Part shown: piece by piece, positions 53,486 to 62,962 of the stretch | Layout of the letters: every line of letters starts with the position of its first letter | Numbering within the stretch: position 1 is the stretch's first letter | Origin: Prochlorococcus sp. AG-311-J23 | Lineage (GTDB): Bacteria > Cyanobacteriota > Cyanobacteriia > PCC-6307 > Cyanobiaceae | Assembly: GCA_003284375.1 (NCBI GenBank) | Contig: QBVL01000002.1 | Coordinates: forward strand, 96,821-160,820 | Reading direction: 5' to 3' | Length of the DNA stretch: 64,000 bases | Made by a program: the position numbers and the translations under genes | Notes under the pieces: model-generated | The model's input: only the letters and a program-made list of their open reading frames with translations | Databases searched by the model: none | What the model was told of the DNA's origin: nothing

Positions 53486-53530
53486 TTAATTCTTAATAAC
53501 GTGTTTAGGTATTGCTAGAATATTAATGAC

Positions 53531-53630
53531 TCGGCCCCATGCGGCTGTGACGCTCAAACCTGGTCAGGACCGGAAGGTAGCAGCCATACGGGATGCTCAA
53601 AGCAGGCGTGGACTCCGGGTCACCTTAATC
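53531..53630 (+). ncRNA. ffs: signal recognition particle RNA (small bacterial type)
   Basis: Holds the diagnostic SRP apical region CTGGTCAGGACCGGAAGGTAGCAGCC, given in two parts (53560-53572 and 53573-53585): the symmetric internal loop and the GGAA tetraloop closed by CC/GG. Flanking GTGAC (53547) and GTCAC (53619) pair to close the long hairpin. The RNA binds Ffh and helps target membrane proteins. It lies between panB and ftsZ on the opposite strand. Exact ends are approximate. Confidence 0.9.
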
Positions 53631-57280: not shown

Positions 57281-58672
57281 TTAAAGTAATTTAGCTGTTA
57301 AAGAAAAAGGACGAATGTCAGTAATCTTTACCTTGATAAGTTCCCCGAGATTGTGGAGTTCTCCATTCTCTAAGGATCTTGGAAAAAAAGTAAGACGGTT
57401 TGTACGTGTTCGACCCATTAATTGTGAACTATCTTTTGGATTTATATTCTCAATAAGTATTTCTTGAGATGAATTTTTATATCTTTCATTTCTTTCTTTA
57501 GCTATATTTTCAACCAAACTATTTATTTCTCTAAGTCTCTTTACTTTTACATCCTCATTTAATTGTCCAGGCCAAGTAGCCGCTGGTGTATTTGGTCTAG
57601 GAGAATATGCGGCTGTATTGACATGATCAAATTTTATTTCATCAATTAATGATAAAGTTTGCTCAAAATCCGTTTCACTTTCTCCTGGGAAAGCTACAAT
57701 TGCATCTCCACTAATTGCTGCTTTAGGTATGGAATCCTTGATGTAATTGATAATATTTTTGTAACTTTCTATTGTATACCCCCGTCCCATATTTTTTAGA
57801 ATTTGATTACTTCCACTCTGAAATGGGATATGAAAGTGTTCGCAGACTTTGGGAAGTTCTGCACATGTATCAATTAACTCCTTAGTAAAGTAACGTGGAT
57901 GACTAGTCGCAAATCTAATACGTTCAATTCCATCAATATCATGAATATAGTTTAATAAATAAGATAGTGTAATTCGTTCAGAATCTTTTTGGTTTTGAAC
58001 TTGAAAATCTCTACCGTAAGCATCTATGTTCTGTCCCAATAAAGTTATTTCTTTATAACCACTTTTTGCTAAGTTTTTTATTTCAGATTTAATTACTTCT
58101 GGTGTTCTTGATTGTTCTTTGCCTCTTACAGAGGGAACTACACAATAAGTACAACGTTCATTACATCCGTAAATAATATTCACCCATCCGCAAATAGAAC
58201 TATCTCTTCTAGGAGTGGTTATGTCTTCGAGTATAAATTGTTCTTCAGTTGCAAGAACTTGCTGGCCGGTATCAACTTGATTAAGCAAACTTTCAAGACG
58301 ATTGCAATGTTGAGGCCCCATTAAAAGATCTATTTCAGGGACACGTCTTAAAAGAGACTCACCTTCTTGTTGAGCAAGGCAACCTGCAACGATGATTTTT
58401 AAATTTGGTAATGATCTTTTTCTTATGGCCTGTCTTCCCAGATAGCTATAAACTTTTTGCTCAGCACTATCACGAATAGTACATGTGTTATAAAGAACTA
58501 AATCTGCCTTAAGTTCTTCTGCAGCAGGGTAATAACCCATATATTCAAGTATGCCCGACATCCTTTCTGAGTCAGCTTTGTTCATTTGACATCCAAAAGT
58601 AGTAATCCAATAGCTACCTCTTAAGGGATTAATTGGAGATTTATTTGTTTTTTGGAGCTGAACTGTTGTCAT
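57281..58672 (-). CDS. miaB: tRNA-2-methylthio-N6-isopentenyladenosine synthase MiaB
   Basis: Radical SAM enzyme that adds the methylthio group at A37 of tRNAs. 463 residues: an N-terminal MTTase domain with three Cys ([16 protein letters not shown] and [10 protein letters not shown]), the radical SAM site [12 protein letters not shown] (C-x3-C-x2-C), and a C-terminal TRAM domain ([30 protein letters not shown]). Length normal. Beside tRNA-His, on the same strand, 86 bp downstream of it. Confidence 0.96.
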
Positions 58673-58758: not shown

Positions 58759-58832
58759 GGCGGATGAGGGGATTCGAACCCCCGGATGGCGGCACCACAA
58801 GCCGCTGCCTTAACCACTTGGCGACACCCGCC
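58759..58832 (-). tRNA. tRNA-His(GTG)
   Basis: Reverse complement gives a full cloverleaf: extra 5' G (-1) paired with discriminator C73, as bacterial tRNA-His requires; acceptor GCGGGTG/CATCCGC; anticodon arm GCGGC-TTGTGGT-GCCGC with anticodon GTG; T loop TTCGAAT. CCA is not encoded. Confidence 0.97.
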
Positions 58833-59035
58833 TCGAAATCAGAATTTATCAAGCTTTTGTCATTTTGATATCTCAAAATGATTCAGCGAAATATTTCCTT
58901 TATTTATTCTAACTTGGAAGTTTCTATAAATATCACTTTTGTATGTTGATCACAACGCATTTCAAAGATATTGAAGTTACTGTGGATTTGTGAGGCCTTG
59001 AAAATAGGCTTTTGATTTGGTGATCGTATTATTAA

Positions 59036-60349
59036 GTGACTTTCGAAAAAGAAGAATTCAATTTATTTACTAGAGCATCAGGTCGTGTTGATGTATTAGT
59101 ACCCAGATGCTTAATCGGAGAGGGTGCAAGTGTTTTGGGAATAAAAGTTGACTTTGAAGGGTTATGTTCGCTTCAAGTTGAGTGGAAGCACGGGAAAATC
59201 TGCTCAATTAAAGGTTTAAAAGATGATTCAAAACTTCCTAATGAAATCCTTCTACCTAGATTTGCTGAACCTCATGCTCATTTAGATAAAGCATTTTCAT
59301 GGTCTCGAGCTCCGAATTATAAAGGGAGTTATCAAGAAGCTTTAGTAGCCAATTTGAGTGACTATAAAAGTAGGTCCGAAAATCAATTGCTTTTTAGTGT
59401 TGAAAAATCTCTAAACCTAGCCCTTGTTAATGGGATACGCGCTATTAGATCTCATATAGATAGTTTTGGAAAAAATGTAATTAGAGATTGGGATCTCTTG
59501 GAAGATGTTAGAAAAAAATGGCGAGACAAAATTTTCTTACAGTTTGTGGCTTTAGTTCCATTAGAATTTTGGCAAACGCACGAAGGTGAGCTTTTAGCTC
59601 AAAGAGTTGCTTTGAATGGAGATCTCCTAGGAGGTGTCATAGCGCCTCCTTTTAATAAAAAGAAGACAATTAAGTCTTTATTACACTTAGTGCAACTAGC
59701 AAATAGACTTAATTGTGATATTGATCTTCATATTGATGAGTCTCAGTCTTGCCCTGCTGCAGGAGTAAAATTACTTCTTGAAGTATTAGACCGTATTGAA
59801 AATGATATATCAATAACTTGTAGTCATTTGAGCAGTATGTCTTTTCTAAGAGAAAAAGCGATCTCAAATTTGGCAAAAGAAATGGCTGAAAAAAAATTAA
59901 ATGTTGTTGCTTTACCACTCACTAATTCTTGGCTTCTCGGTAGAAATGATCGAGCCACTTTAATTGAAAGACCTCTGGCTCCCATATTTCAACTTCAAAA
60001 GGCTGGGGTTGTTGTATCTGTAGGAGGGGACAATGTAAATGATGCATGGTTTCCTTTCTCTAATTTTGATCCTATAAATTTAATGGCTTTTTCAATGCCA
60101 ATTGCTCATTTAGCTCCCTGGGATAGATTGGGCCTTTCTCCATTTACTTCGTCCTCAGCAAGTATTCTTAATCTTCAATGGGATGGCCTTGTTCAAAAAG
60201 GAAGTCCTGCCGATTTTGTTTTGTTAGATTCAAACAGTTGGGTAAAAGCTTTATCTGAAAGACCTAAAAGAAGAGTAGTAGTTAATGGCCAATTCCTGAA
60301 TGAATTGCCTAAAACCCAAAATTCAACATCCAACATTTCTAACCCATGA
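59036..60349 (+). CDS. CodA-like amidohydrolase (cytosine-deaminase family), substrate unknown
   Basis: A 437-residue metal-dependent amidohydrolase, start GTG. Metal ligands: PHAHLDKAF (H80, H82), DIDLHIDES (His and catalytic Glu), ITCSHLSS (His) and VSVGGDNVNDAW (Asp). The overall order and spacing follow E. coli CodA (cytosine deaminase). The segment aligned with the cytosine-binding Gln of CodA (FPQEG) reads VPLEFW here, with Leu instead of Gln, so the substrate may not be cytosine. Its stop overlaps the start of the FAD oxidase (ATGA, 60346-60349), so the two are coupled and probably act on one pathway. Confidence 0.8.
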   Translation: MTFEKEEFNLFTRASGRVDVLVPRCLIGEGASVLGIKVDFEGLCSLQVEWKHGKICSIKGLKDDSKLPNEILLPRFAEPHAHLDKAFSWSRAPNYKGSYQEALVANLSDYKSRSENQLLFSVEKSLNLALVNGIRAIRSHIDSFGKNVIRDWDLLEDVRKKWRDKIFLQFVALVPLEFWQTHEGELLAQRVALNGDLLGGVIAPPFNKKKTIKSLLHLVQLANRLNCDIDLHIDESQSCPAAGVKLLLEVLDRIENDISITCSHLSSMSFLREKAISNLAKEMAEKKLNVVALPLTNSWLLGRNDRATLIERPLAPIFQLQKAGVVVSVGGDNVNDAWFPFSNFDPINLMAFSMPIAHLAPWDRLGLSPFTSSSASILNLQWDGLVQKGSPADFVLLDSNSWVKALSERPKRRVVVNGQFLNELPKTQNSTSNISNP

Positions 60350-61698
60350 CTAATAAAGAGAAAGTAGAGTTGATTTTAAGTGAACTAAAATCAGTACCTG
60401 ATCTAGAGATCTATCAAAAAACTAGTGATTTAAAAAGGTTTTCTAAAGATTTCTTTGATTATTCACCGATATTGATTAATGAATTAAAAGATTGTTTGGC
60501 TGATATAGTCGTTCGACCGCTTTCGGTAGACGCAATTATTATTGTGGCTCAAATGTGTAATCGGTATTCAACTCCTTTGACCCTAAGAGGCTCTGGAACA
60601 GGGAATTATGGTCAGTGTGTTCCGCTTGACGGTGGAGTCGTTATGGTCATGTCTGGTCTTCGGAAAATTAGAAATTTCGATTCAAAATCAGGTGAAATCA
60701 CAGTTGAACCTGGTTGTTTACTTAGAGATATTAATGATGAGTTGATTAAACATGGTCGTCAGTTACGGTTGCTTCCGAGTACATGGAGAAGCGCTTCCGT
60801 TGGTGGATTTATTGCTGGCGGTTCAGGTGGAATAGGATCCGTTCGTTGGGGCTTCCTCAGAGATCCTGGGCATTTGCATGCCTTAGAAGTAATAACGACT
60901 GAGGATTCACCAAGAAAACTAGAATTGAATGCAAGCAATTCTGAAGCTTTAAATCATGCTTATGGAACTAACGGAATTATTACTGCATTGACATTATCAA
61001 CTGCCCCATATGTTGAATGGCAACAAATAGTAGTCGACTGCTTTGATTTGGATCAGGCAGTTGACTTGTTACGTGAATTTAGTTGTGCAGCATTGGAGCT
61101 TTATTTGGGAACCTTGTTAGAGAAAGAAATTGTTAAGTGTCTTCCCTCTGGGTCTGGCAAACCTTCAAACAAACATAGACTTTTACTTTTGGTTTCACCT
61201 GATGGTGTTAGTACTATTGAACGACTTGCGAAATCGGCTGGCGCAGATTTTGACAACTTAGGTCCAGAAAATCTTAAGGCAGGAACAGGCCTTCGAGAGC
61301 TTTCTTGGAACCATACGACTTTACATATGCGTGGGATTGATCCTGCTTGGACATATTTGCAAATGCTTCTTCCTCAGCCTGAGTTGGAAATGATGAAAAA
61401 ATTGAAATCAGAGTGGGGATCAAACCTTTTATGGCATTTGGAATGTGTTCGTCAAAATGGAGTTCAAAGATTAGCTTCACTTCCTGTTGTTAAGTGGCAA
61501 GGTGAAGAAGCTATGAATCAATTAATCAGTCAATGCAGAGACCTTGGTGCAGTAATTTTTAATCCGCATACAATCACTGTTGAAGATGGAGGCCTAGGTG
61601 TAATTGATTCTGATCAAGTGCAAGCTAAGAGTAACTTTGATCCAAAAGGTATTCTCAACCCAGGGAAACTCAAAGGGTGGAATATAAAAGTCAATTGA
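60346..61698 (+). CDS. FAD-dependent oxidase, GlcD/VAO (PCMH) type
   Basis: A 450-residue flavoprotein with a PCMH FAD-binding domain: TLRGSGTGNYGQCVPLDGGVV, VEPGCLLRDINDELIKHG, and RSASVGGFIAGGSGGIGS. The C-terminal cap domain is less conserved, and FDPKGILNPGKLKG at the end is the family's closing motif. Relatives include glycolate, D-lactate and alditol oxidases/dehydrogenases. Cytoplasmic; substrate unknown. Translationally coupled (4-bp overlap) to the CodA-like hydrolase. No partner iron-sulphur subunit (GlcE/F) is beside it. Confidence 0.85.
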   Translation: MTNKEKVELILSELKSVPDLEIYQKTSDLKRFSKDFFDYSPILINELKDCLADIVVRPLSVDAIIIVAQMCNRYSTPLTLRGSGTGNYGQCVPLDGGVVMVMSGLRKIRNFDSKSGEITVEPGCLLRDINDELIKHGRQLRLLPSTWRSASVGGFIAGGSGGIGSVRWGFLRDPGHLHALEVITTEDSPRKLELNASNSEALNHAYGTNGIITALTLSTAPYVEWQQIVVDCFDLDQAVDLLREFSCAALELYLGTLLEKEIVKCLPSGSGKPSNKHRLLLLVSPDGVSTIERLAKSAGADFDNLGPENLKAGTGLRELSWNHTTLHMRGIDPAWTYLQMLLPQPELEMMKKLKSEWGSNLLWHLECVRQNGVQRLASLPVVKWQGEEAMNQLISQCRDLGAVIFNPHTITVEDGGLGVIDSDQVQAKSNFDPKGILNPGKLKGWNIKVN

Positions 61699-61723: not shown

Positions 61724-62962
61724 TTAACTTGTCAGTATCTTCTTTTGAAAAAGGTCACCTATTAAATATAGTGATCCTGAAATTATAGGTGGTGGAGATG
61801 GCCATCTATGTTGTTTTTTAAGTGTTGATAAAACTTCTACTACAGTAAATGCTTCTTTGATTTGGTCTTTATATTCAGGGCGAAAACTTAAAATTTGATC
61901 TTTTGACCAGCTTTGTTGACCTGGGACAGGAACTATCCAAGCTAAATCTTTCGCTCTAATTAGCTTATGCAAAATGCCTATCATATCTTTTCTTTTTTGA
62001 ATCCCCAGTATCCAAATAATTCCACTTTCTTGATCAGTCCATGCGTCTCTTTCTCTTGATAATTGCTTAGCCGCATGAGGATTATGTGCACCATCAACAA
62101 CTATGGGCATCCCTTCCCATTTTGTTGTTTGAAGTCTTCCAGGCCATTTAGCAAGAGACAAGCCTTCTCGAAGTTGTCCTTCAGAAATATTCCATCCAAT
62201 AGTTTTTAGGGATTCAATAACCCCTTTTGCTACAGCTGCATTTTCTTTTTGTATTGCTCCTGCTAAACCGAGTTCCCAAGCTGAGGGAATTGGATCTACC
62301 CAATGAATGACTGCTTGTTTCCTTTTTGCAGTCTCTTCGAAAACTCTTTTTACAATATTGTGTTGAGGAGCTGTAATGACAGTACTCTTTGTAGTTATTA
62401 CGGCTGCTTTCTCAATAGCTACTTTTTCTAGACTATTGCCTAAGTATTCACAATGATCAAGCCCAACAGCTCCAAATGCAATAATAGGTCTATATTGATG
62501 CGCGGTTGTTGCATCAAGTCTACCTCCAAGCCCTACTTCAAGGATAAGAAGTTCAACTTCCCTTAAAGTGAAATATTTAAGTGCTATTGCAATAATACTT
62601 TCAAAAGGAGTCAAACTATACTTTTTTGCAATTGGTGCAAGAGACAGGCTTAACGATTGAAATTCTTCTTTTGATATTGGAGTCTTGTTGATACATATTC
62701 TCTCGACCCAATCAACTAAATGGGGAGAAGTGCTAACTCCAGTTTTGATATTTACTAAGCTAAGAACACTATTAATAAAAGCGCAAATTGAGCCTTTCCC
62801 ATTCGTTCCTGCTATGTGAATAGCAGGGGTTTCTTTACAGGGATCTCCCATGGCATTAATCGCTAATGACATACGATCTATGCTCAGATTCATATCTTCA
62901 TATTCTTTACTCTTGCTTTCAAAAATGAAATTCGATTGTGCTATGAAAGTTTCATCAGACAT
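61724..62962 (-). CDS. folC: folylpolyglutamate / dihydrofolate synthase
   Basis: Adds glutamate to folates. A Mur-ligase-like ATPase of 412 residues: HIAGTNGKGSICAFINSVL (P-loop), STSPHLVDWVERICIN, ILEVGLGGRLDATTAH, and VDGAHNPHAAKQL. About 20 residues precede the usual start, and the first 22 bp overlap the end of argD upstream, indicating coupled translation. Confidence 0.93.
   Translation of the reverse strand: MSDETFIAQSNFIFESKSKEYEDMNLSIDRMSLAINAMGDPCKETPAIHIAGTNGKGSICAFINSVLSLVNIKTGVSTSPHLVDWVERICINKTPISKEEFQSLSLSLAPIAKKYSLTPFESIIAIALKYFTLREVELLILEVGLGGRLDATTAHQYRPIIAFGAVGLDHCEYLGNSLEKVAIEKAAVITTKSTVITAPQHNIVKRVFEETAKRKQAVIHWVDPIPSAWELGLAGAIQKENAAVAKGVIESLKTIGWNISEGQLREGLSLAKWPGRLQTTKWEGMPIVVDGAHNPHAAKQLSRERDAWTDQESGIIWILGIQKRKDMIGILHKLIRAKDLAWIVPVPGQQSWSKDQILSFRPEYKDQIKEAFTVVEVLSTLKKQHRWPSPPPIISGSLYLIGDLFQKKILTS

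Follow-up and report, generated by a model that had tools for sequence, protein, structure and literature searches.

Two adjacent genes in a stretch of 64,000 nucleotides from contig QBVL01000002.1 of Prochlorococcus sp. AG-311-J23 (the window, analysed here as a whole) encode a COG0402-type amidohydrolase and an FAD enzyme, and we propose, with a probability of roughly 57%, that they form a pterin-degrading unit of picocyanobacteria, in which a pterin deaminase and a flavin oxygenase are kept for internal pterin breakdown products. For the substrate, the succession of steps, the FAD chemistry and the physiological role, we infer that the hydrolase would take the 2-amino group off an oxidised pterin to give a lumazine and ammonia, the candidate substrates being pterin-6-carboxylate or 6-formylpterin released by the light breakdown of folates or related pterins, and that the FAD enzyme (the oxidase) would oxidise the lumazine ring, leading to its opening or disposal. 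Where the two enzymes occur in proteobacteria and in certain other cyanobacteria, they would act behind an importer, and a creatininase-type hydrolase and RidA would finish the pathway. No match to that importer is found in the family of the window, which retains the two enzymes, mostly linked, most likely to act on intracellular pterins. Removal of the pterin amino group by published homologues is described in the relevant passages of PMC9513972. The features of the locus are collected in Table 1.

Table 1. The hydrolase-oxidase pair and its surroundings, in positions of the window.
Feature	Position	Strand	Remarks
Hydrolase, COG0402-type amidohydrolase, pterin-deaminase-like	59036..60349	+	GTG start, 437 aa, intact
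FAD enzyme of 6v42 type (oxidase)	60346..61698	+	ATG start, 450 aa, intact
ATGA stop/start overlap, 4 bases	60346..60349	+	Read from sequence
Upstream region of the pair, without a GTAN8TAC (NtcA-type) site	58832..59035	+	
miaB, conserved flank, outside the unit	57281..58672	-	TIGR01574, 446 bits against a cut-off of 355
folC, conserved convergent flank, outside the unit	61724..62962	-	TIGR01499, 264 bits against a cut-off of 163

Both open reading frames and the four-base overlap described in an earlier note on this DNA were recovered in the window. The pair is bordered on one side by tRNA-His and by miaB on the opposite strand, and on the other side by the convergent folC. Among the neighbouring genes in the window there are no partner subunits of the oxidase and neither glcE nor glcF, so that the earlier description of an oxidase lacking its usual partners holds. 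Importer, creatininase, RidA and regulator genes are all absent alongside the window pair, and the hydrolase is the only linked partner of the oxidase. In five comparisons for each gene dN/dS ranges from 0.18 to 0.22 for the hydrolase and from 0.09 to 0.18 for the oxidase; both genes are real, stand under purifying selection and do not arise by chance. The window matches the single-cell genome AG-311-D23 at 99-100%.

The arrangement is widely conserved in picocyanobacteria. Among the best 80 of 520 contig loci, found through the oxidase, the hydrolase lies directly 5' of the oxidase in 79, the exception being a contig that starts inside the oxidase gene (L061); the contig start cuts the hydrolase in L049 and L073. 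The distance between the two genes ranges from -8 to 79 bases in the 76 measurable loci, with the genes overlapping in 22 of these and by exactly four bases in 12, and the exact four-base overlap seen in the window is not general. The flanks recur as well, miaB lying at most 6 kb upstream of the pair in 64/64 loci and folC at most 2.5 kb from it in 68/68. Within the genus of the window, both genes are present and adjacent in 31 of 37 genomes, the contig of one genome (G028) begins inside the oxidase, and five genomes are without both genes; the locus seems to be unassembled in these five because folC and any good match to miaB are missing from them too. A patchy presence within the genus was therefore rejected, the pattern looking like one of assembly gaps.

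In the wider family the oxidase is found in 111 and the hydrolase in 101 of 121 genomes, and all 101 genomes with the hydrolase also carry the oxidase. The two genes lie within 600 bases of each other in 97 of these 101 genomes and on different contigs in four, all of one genus. In the 75 family genomes with a completeness of 90% or more and a contamination of 5% or less, the oxidase is present in 74 and the hydrolase in 68. Ten family genomes contain the oxidase without the hydrolase, of which two are truncated by the end of a contig and the other eight belong to three genera, and neither gene was found in a further ten, one of which is 99% complete. Some absences in the wider family seem real, as in G218, a one-contig genome with the oxidase and no hydrolase. 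The pairing is thus not obligatory, given the eight oxidase-only genomes of three genera and the one genus with the genes on separate contigs. The two-gene unit recognised in the earlier note is nevertheless conserved: far from being unlinked in most relatives, the genes are adjacent wherever both occur save in the four genomes above, and conservation of the unit in all picocyanobacteria, which the note had raised, comes close to holding, the shortfall being the eight genomes with the oxidase alone and the ten with neither gene. Across 146 cyanobacterial genomes the oxidase accompanies the hydrolase in 28 of 30 cases and occurs in 9 of the 116 genomes without it (Fisher p 6e-20, relatedness not corrected). 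The pair is found within about 600 bases in 9 of the 28 co-occurring genomes of that set, six of the nine belonging to the family of the window; outside this family the two genes are often apart.

The oxidase is assigned by both profile and fold. A profile of 39 picocyanobacterial oxidases searched against solved structures retrieved 6v42 with an E value of 2e-110, the next structure following at 2.5e-22. Similarly, the predicted structure of the oxidase (mean pLDDT 81.6) superposes on 6v42 with a Z score of 41.5 over 429 residues at 34% identity, the next structure reaching a Z score of 28.7. The entry of 6v42 is titled 'Crystal structure of the flavin oxygenase with cofactor bound involved in folate catabolism', and the role in folate catabolism is taken here from that title. 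Residues N322-T325, H364, E366, P407, H408, E413 and G415 of the oxidase are conserved in 96% or more of 54 aligned rows, and its identity to the oxidases of the proteobacterial clusters described below is 31-37%. An identification as GlcD was rejected, the TIGR00387 score amounting to only 84 bits, where the cut-off is 567.9, and glcE and glcF being absent alongside. As judged from sequence and from the model, the oxidase is not GlcD and belongs to the FAD enzymes of 6v42 type, with a predicted function as a folate-catabolism flavin oxygenase.

The hydrolase retains the metal and catalytic residues of E. coli CodA (H80, H82, H232, E235, H264 and D332), as the earlier note had read them. In the CodA numbering and with the residue roles that we assume, Gln156 being taken as the cytosine-binding residue, the window enzyme carries Pro175 (P175) in place of Gln156 and Asn333 in place of Asp314. 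Gln is absent from the first position and Asn occupies the second in 51/51 aligned hydrolases, of which 27 are picocyanobacterial (the window included), 10 come from other cyanobacteria and 14 from the clusters; the missing cytosine-binding glutamine of the earlier note is thereby borne out. Two aligned pocket positions are also altered, to W299 (Y, L or F in the others) and to W338 (F in the others), each in 27/27 picocyanobacterial hydrolases. The best NCBIfam profile for the window hydrolase is PRK07583, which scores 247 bits, with the next at 131, and lies under its curated cut-off of 403 bits. PRK07583 is likewise the best profile for 9/9 relatives tried other than CodA, for which PRK09230 is best; its cut-off is passed by L121 (631 bits), L145, L147 and L148 and missed by L066, L142, L156, L158 and the pADP-1 protein. 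The CodA-type profile PRK09230 gives 107 bits for the window enzyme against a cut-off of 483 and 896 bits for E. coli CodA. The NCBI name of PRK07583 is 'cytosine deaminase', which is probably misleading, as the cluster context suggests.

Overall similarity to CodA is less discriminating than these residues and profiles. Identity of the window hydrolase amounts to 22-27% with the cluster enzymes and to 23% with CodA, and on these sequences plain identity does not separate the two. The folds nearest to the predicted structure (mean pLDDT 87.8) are those of CodA and a 5-methylcytosine deaminase (Z 41-43), followed by AtzC-type enzymes (Z 38-39). The picocyanobacterial hydrolases form one clade in the tree, which was built from 55 rows; the clade has a support of 100 and a long stem of 1.75 changes per column. 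With a support of 98 it joins the enzymes of the clusters and of other cyanobacteria to the exclusion of CodA and AtzC, a split that rests on two long-branched outgroups flagged by a warning of the tree tool. The amidohydrolase of pADP-1, which comes from another context and was intended as an outgroup, was placed inside the hydrolase clade. The trees exclude the Klebsiella hydrolase, split in two frames (L140), and L144 and L153, which carry no annotation; L071 and L097 have no usable hydrolase start, the open reading frame of L097 being intact. By its residues and profile scores the hydrolase stands apart from ordinary cytosine deaminases.

The two enzymes together constitute the core of gene clusters of 6v42 type in proteobacteria, and the statement in the earlier note that no described pathway has this pairing must be withdrawn. 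An oxidase match was obtained in 168 plasmid records; in a sample of 18 of these, an amidohydrolase is present within the cluster in 17, L141 having none; it lies directly upstream of the oxidase in 13 of the 18 (in L144 in two frames) and elsewhere in the cluster in three, while in L140 it is an unannotated, frame-split open reading frame. Each of the 16 annotated records contains RidA, genes of an ABC transporter and a gene of the creatininase family, the last annotated in 15 and recognised by Pfam in one; the importer of these clusters is of NMT1 type. Pfam domains in example clusters comprise Creatininase, NMT1/THI5, a flavodoxin-type reductase, a YcdC-like TetR regulator and L-PSP. In the Rhizobium cluster L148 the oxidase aligns almost end to end with 6v42 (722.5 bits), and 6v42 therefore belongs to this cluster type. 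The picocyanobacterial pair shares with clusters such as L148 and L142 the two enzymes, the active-site pattern and the 6v42 fold. In contrast to them it has no adjoining importer, creatininase, RidA or regulator and forms a deep clade of its own, the identities of two picocyanobacterial sequences compared being 22-28% for the hydrolase and 31-37% for the oxidase.

A link to pterins is also suggested by characterised amidohydrolases. Arad3529 is reportedly a pterin deaminase (EC 3.5.4.11) that removes the pterin amino group. The family of RidA in Pfam, PF01042, is named Endoribonuclease L-PSP, and in the Rahnella and Pantoea clusters the amidohydrolase is followed by RidA. According to the relevant passages of PMC9513972, the Variovorax pterin deaminase, a protein of 399 aa with 37% identity to Arad3529, deaminates folate and pteroate, and conserved 'endoribonuclease' genes lie downstream of it. 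From the name of PF01042 and the gene order in Rahnella and Pantoea, these 'endoribonuclease' genes may be read as RidA, so that the succession of pterin deaminase and 'endoribonuclease' genes reported for V. paradoxus in those passages of PMC9513972 resembles the RidA-bearing clusters. The window hydrolase is likened by gene context to the PDA of Variovorax sp. F1 and to Arad3529, amidohydrolases that take off the pterin amino group, and would by this analogy do the same. Two independent sources thus point to folate and pterins, the tie to pterin deaminase being one of context and not of sequence comparison. A nitrogen heterocycle is the likely class of substrate, in agreement with the small nitrogen-containing ring envisaged in the earlier note.

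An importer precedes the same pair in some other cyanobacteria. In L121 and L178 genes for a substrate-binding protein (SBP), an ATPase, a permease, the hydrolase and the oxidase follow each other in a row by Pfam, with a short open reading frame between hydrolase and oxidase in L178; the order of the two enzymes is that of picocyanobacteria, whose pair, unlike these cassettes, is not preceded by importer genes. In G037, G047 and G059 an SBP gene is located 2-3 kb before the hydrolase and the oxidase lies elsewhere. A cluster-type SBP is present in 11 of 60 cyanobacterial genomes, that is in 11/23 outside the genus of the window and in 0/37 within it, and the query that matches these 11 of 23 other cyanobacteria finds none in the 121 genomes of the family. 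Of the enzymes that finish the pathway in the clusters, the creatininase family was found in 19 and RidA in 15 of 24 genomes searched in the genus of the window, both unlinked to the pair, and neither was found in the genome of the window itself, which is 77% complete. The three creatininase genes read in the genus form a distinct branch, the nearest two being 31-35% identical to the cluster ones; cluster-type creatininases, 46-55% identical to those of L156-L158, were read in four other cyanobacterial genomes, and L160 gave no creatininase match among its open reading frames. The later steps of the pathway are uncertain, since the creatininases of the genus are a distinct branch and both creatininase and RidA are unlinked to the pair.

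Regulation was approached through upstream sites. GTAN8TAC, which we take to be the consensus of an NtcA-type site, is absent from the 200 bases upstream of the pair in all 76 loci, where about 3.6 occurrences would be expected by chance, and control by NtcA was rejected on this count. Control by a riboswitch was also rejected, there being no Rfam match near the pair; in the seven cluster loci covered, out of 12 selected, the sole Rfam match is a sul1 RNA located elsewhere in L139. It is from the importer not being found and from the absence of GTAN8TAC that an internal role in pterin breakdown would follow, and the two absences lean towards such a role over nitrogen feeding.

The strongest competitor of the pterin-degrading unit is action on another nitrogen heterocycle, with fold and chemistry (deamination followed by FAD oxidation) retained but the picocyanobacterial substrate shifted, for example to a modified purine, a lumazine of the riboflavin pathway or an oxidised guanine product. 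This is a serious rival, if on balance an unlikely one, because the low identities to the cluster enzymes, W299 and W338, the PRK07583 score under its cut-off, the placement of the pADP-1 protein and the oxidase-only genera all count against the pterin reading; the long stem of the hydrolase clade, the missing importer match and the lack of a cluster-type gene among the three creatininases read in the genus also fit a shift. It is opposed by the oxidase, which is still 31-37% identical to the cluster enzymes and keeps the conserved residues listed above. Scavenging of nitrogen from pterins or folates in seawater, by way of another kind of transporter encoded elsewhere, appears improbable: pterins are rich in nitrogen and homologous units elsewhere have an importer, but neither the cluster-type SBP, sought throughout genus and family, nor the upstream GTAN8TAC site was found. 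An ordinary cytosine (or creatinine) deaminase beside an unrelated glycolate or D-lactate dehydrogenase, already disfavoured, is very improbable, for although the automatic NCBIfam names ('cytosine deaminase' and glcD), the CodA-like fold and an identity to CodA equal to that of the cluster enzymes agree with it, the replacement of Gln156 and Asp314 throughout the alignment, the PRK09230 and glcD scores far under their cut-offs and the adjacency of the genes in the family do not, and a cytosine deaminase with a glycolate oxidase was rejected on residues and profiles, although plain identity does not reject it. A part in purine or pyrimidine cross-feeding was set aside, the pair being unmentioned in the relevant passages of PMC11698098 and PMC10119275.

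Among the matches listed in the open-access literature, most subscription journals being outside its scope, no title mentions 6v42 or the picocyanobacterial pair. Catabolic clusters of the folate/pterin type with these two enzymes at their core are known; what is new is the core by itself, without importer or linked finishing enzymes, in most of the picocyanobacterial genomes examined. Beyond the pterin-degrading unit itself, a broader picture is offered tentatively as a possibility that we hold to be doubtful: nearly all members of Earth's most abundant phototrophs may carry an internal pterin-disposal unit that derives from a folate-catabolic cluster linked to uptake and was domesticated through loss of the importer; there it would clear oxidised pterins made by light, which are photosensitisers, and recycle their nitrogen, with a ring-opening route that would do without the cluster creatininase. 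The pair is widespread in Prochlorococcus and marine Synechococcus, where the automatic profile names are cytosine deaminase and glycolate oxidase-like. If it is pterin-degrading, a wrong entry may stand in models of how these organisms use nucleobases and carry out photorespiration, and the turnover of folates and pterins in the sunlit ocean would become testable through a defined pair of genes.

The NCBIfam profile NF005759 (PRK07583), which best matches the hydrolase of the window, bears the name 'cytosine deaminase', and rhizobial and cyanobacterial genes may be wrongly annotated on account of this name. The members examined reside mostly within folate/pterin-type clusters, and the cytosine-binding Gln of CodA is missing from them.

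Relatives of the amidohydrolase also occupy other gene settings. The pADP-1 enzyme, whose gene lies next to atzDEF and to genes for an ABC transporter of the BMP type, is placed by the tree within the pterin-deaminase-like clade and displays 44% identity to the Pantoea enzyme. In Rhizobium sp. BT04 (L147) the PRK07583 enzyme has as neighbours an ABC importer and an oxygenase of the isopenicillin-N-synthase type, which perhaps provides an alternative oxidation step in the same pathway; no FAD oxidase is annotated within this stretch. In another cyanobacterium a different amidohydrolase paralogue adjoins a creatininase gene of the cluster type. The cluster amidohydrolase of Klebsiella pneumoniae is broken over two frames in the record retrieved, a 5.4 Mb entry labelled 'plasmid' that looks like a chromosome.

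Among the picocyanobacterial loci, two extra genes separate miaB from the pair in Synechococcus UW140, with best matches to DgcA (170 bits, cut-off 400) and DgcN (232 bits, cut-off 480), both under the NCBIfam cut-offs; DgcA and DgcN function in D-glutamate use. The pair is also present, with an oxidase identity of 63%, on a contig labelled Candidatus Microthrix (L073), probably picocyanobacterial DNA that contaminates a metagenome bin.

Coordinates of RNA elements and of genes at the loci compared
Feature	Locus	Position	Remark
sul1 RNA (RF03058)	L139	17432-17489	directly 5' of SulP transporter gene
Bacterial small SRP RNA (RF00169)	window	53528-53624	54.8 bits
Two extra genes, Synechococcus UW140	L097	5832-8113	
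Amidohydrolase, pADP-1	L159	32491-33822	
Paralogue and creatininase gene, other cyanobacterium	L175	4028-6304	
Split amidohydrolase, K. pneumoniae	L140	3560-4998	

The search of the window's family revealed eight genomes from three genera (G218, G225, G236, G261, G271, G287, G295 and G308) with the oxidase present and no match to the hydrolase. A different deaminase may serve in these organisms, or the oxidase may have a separate role.
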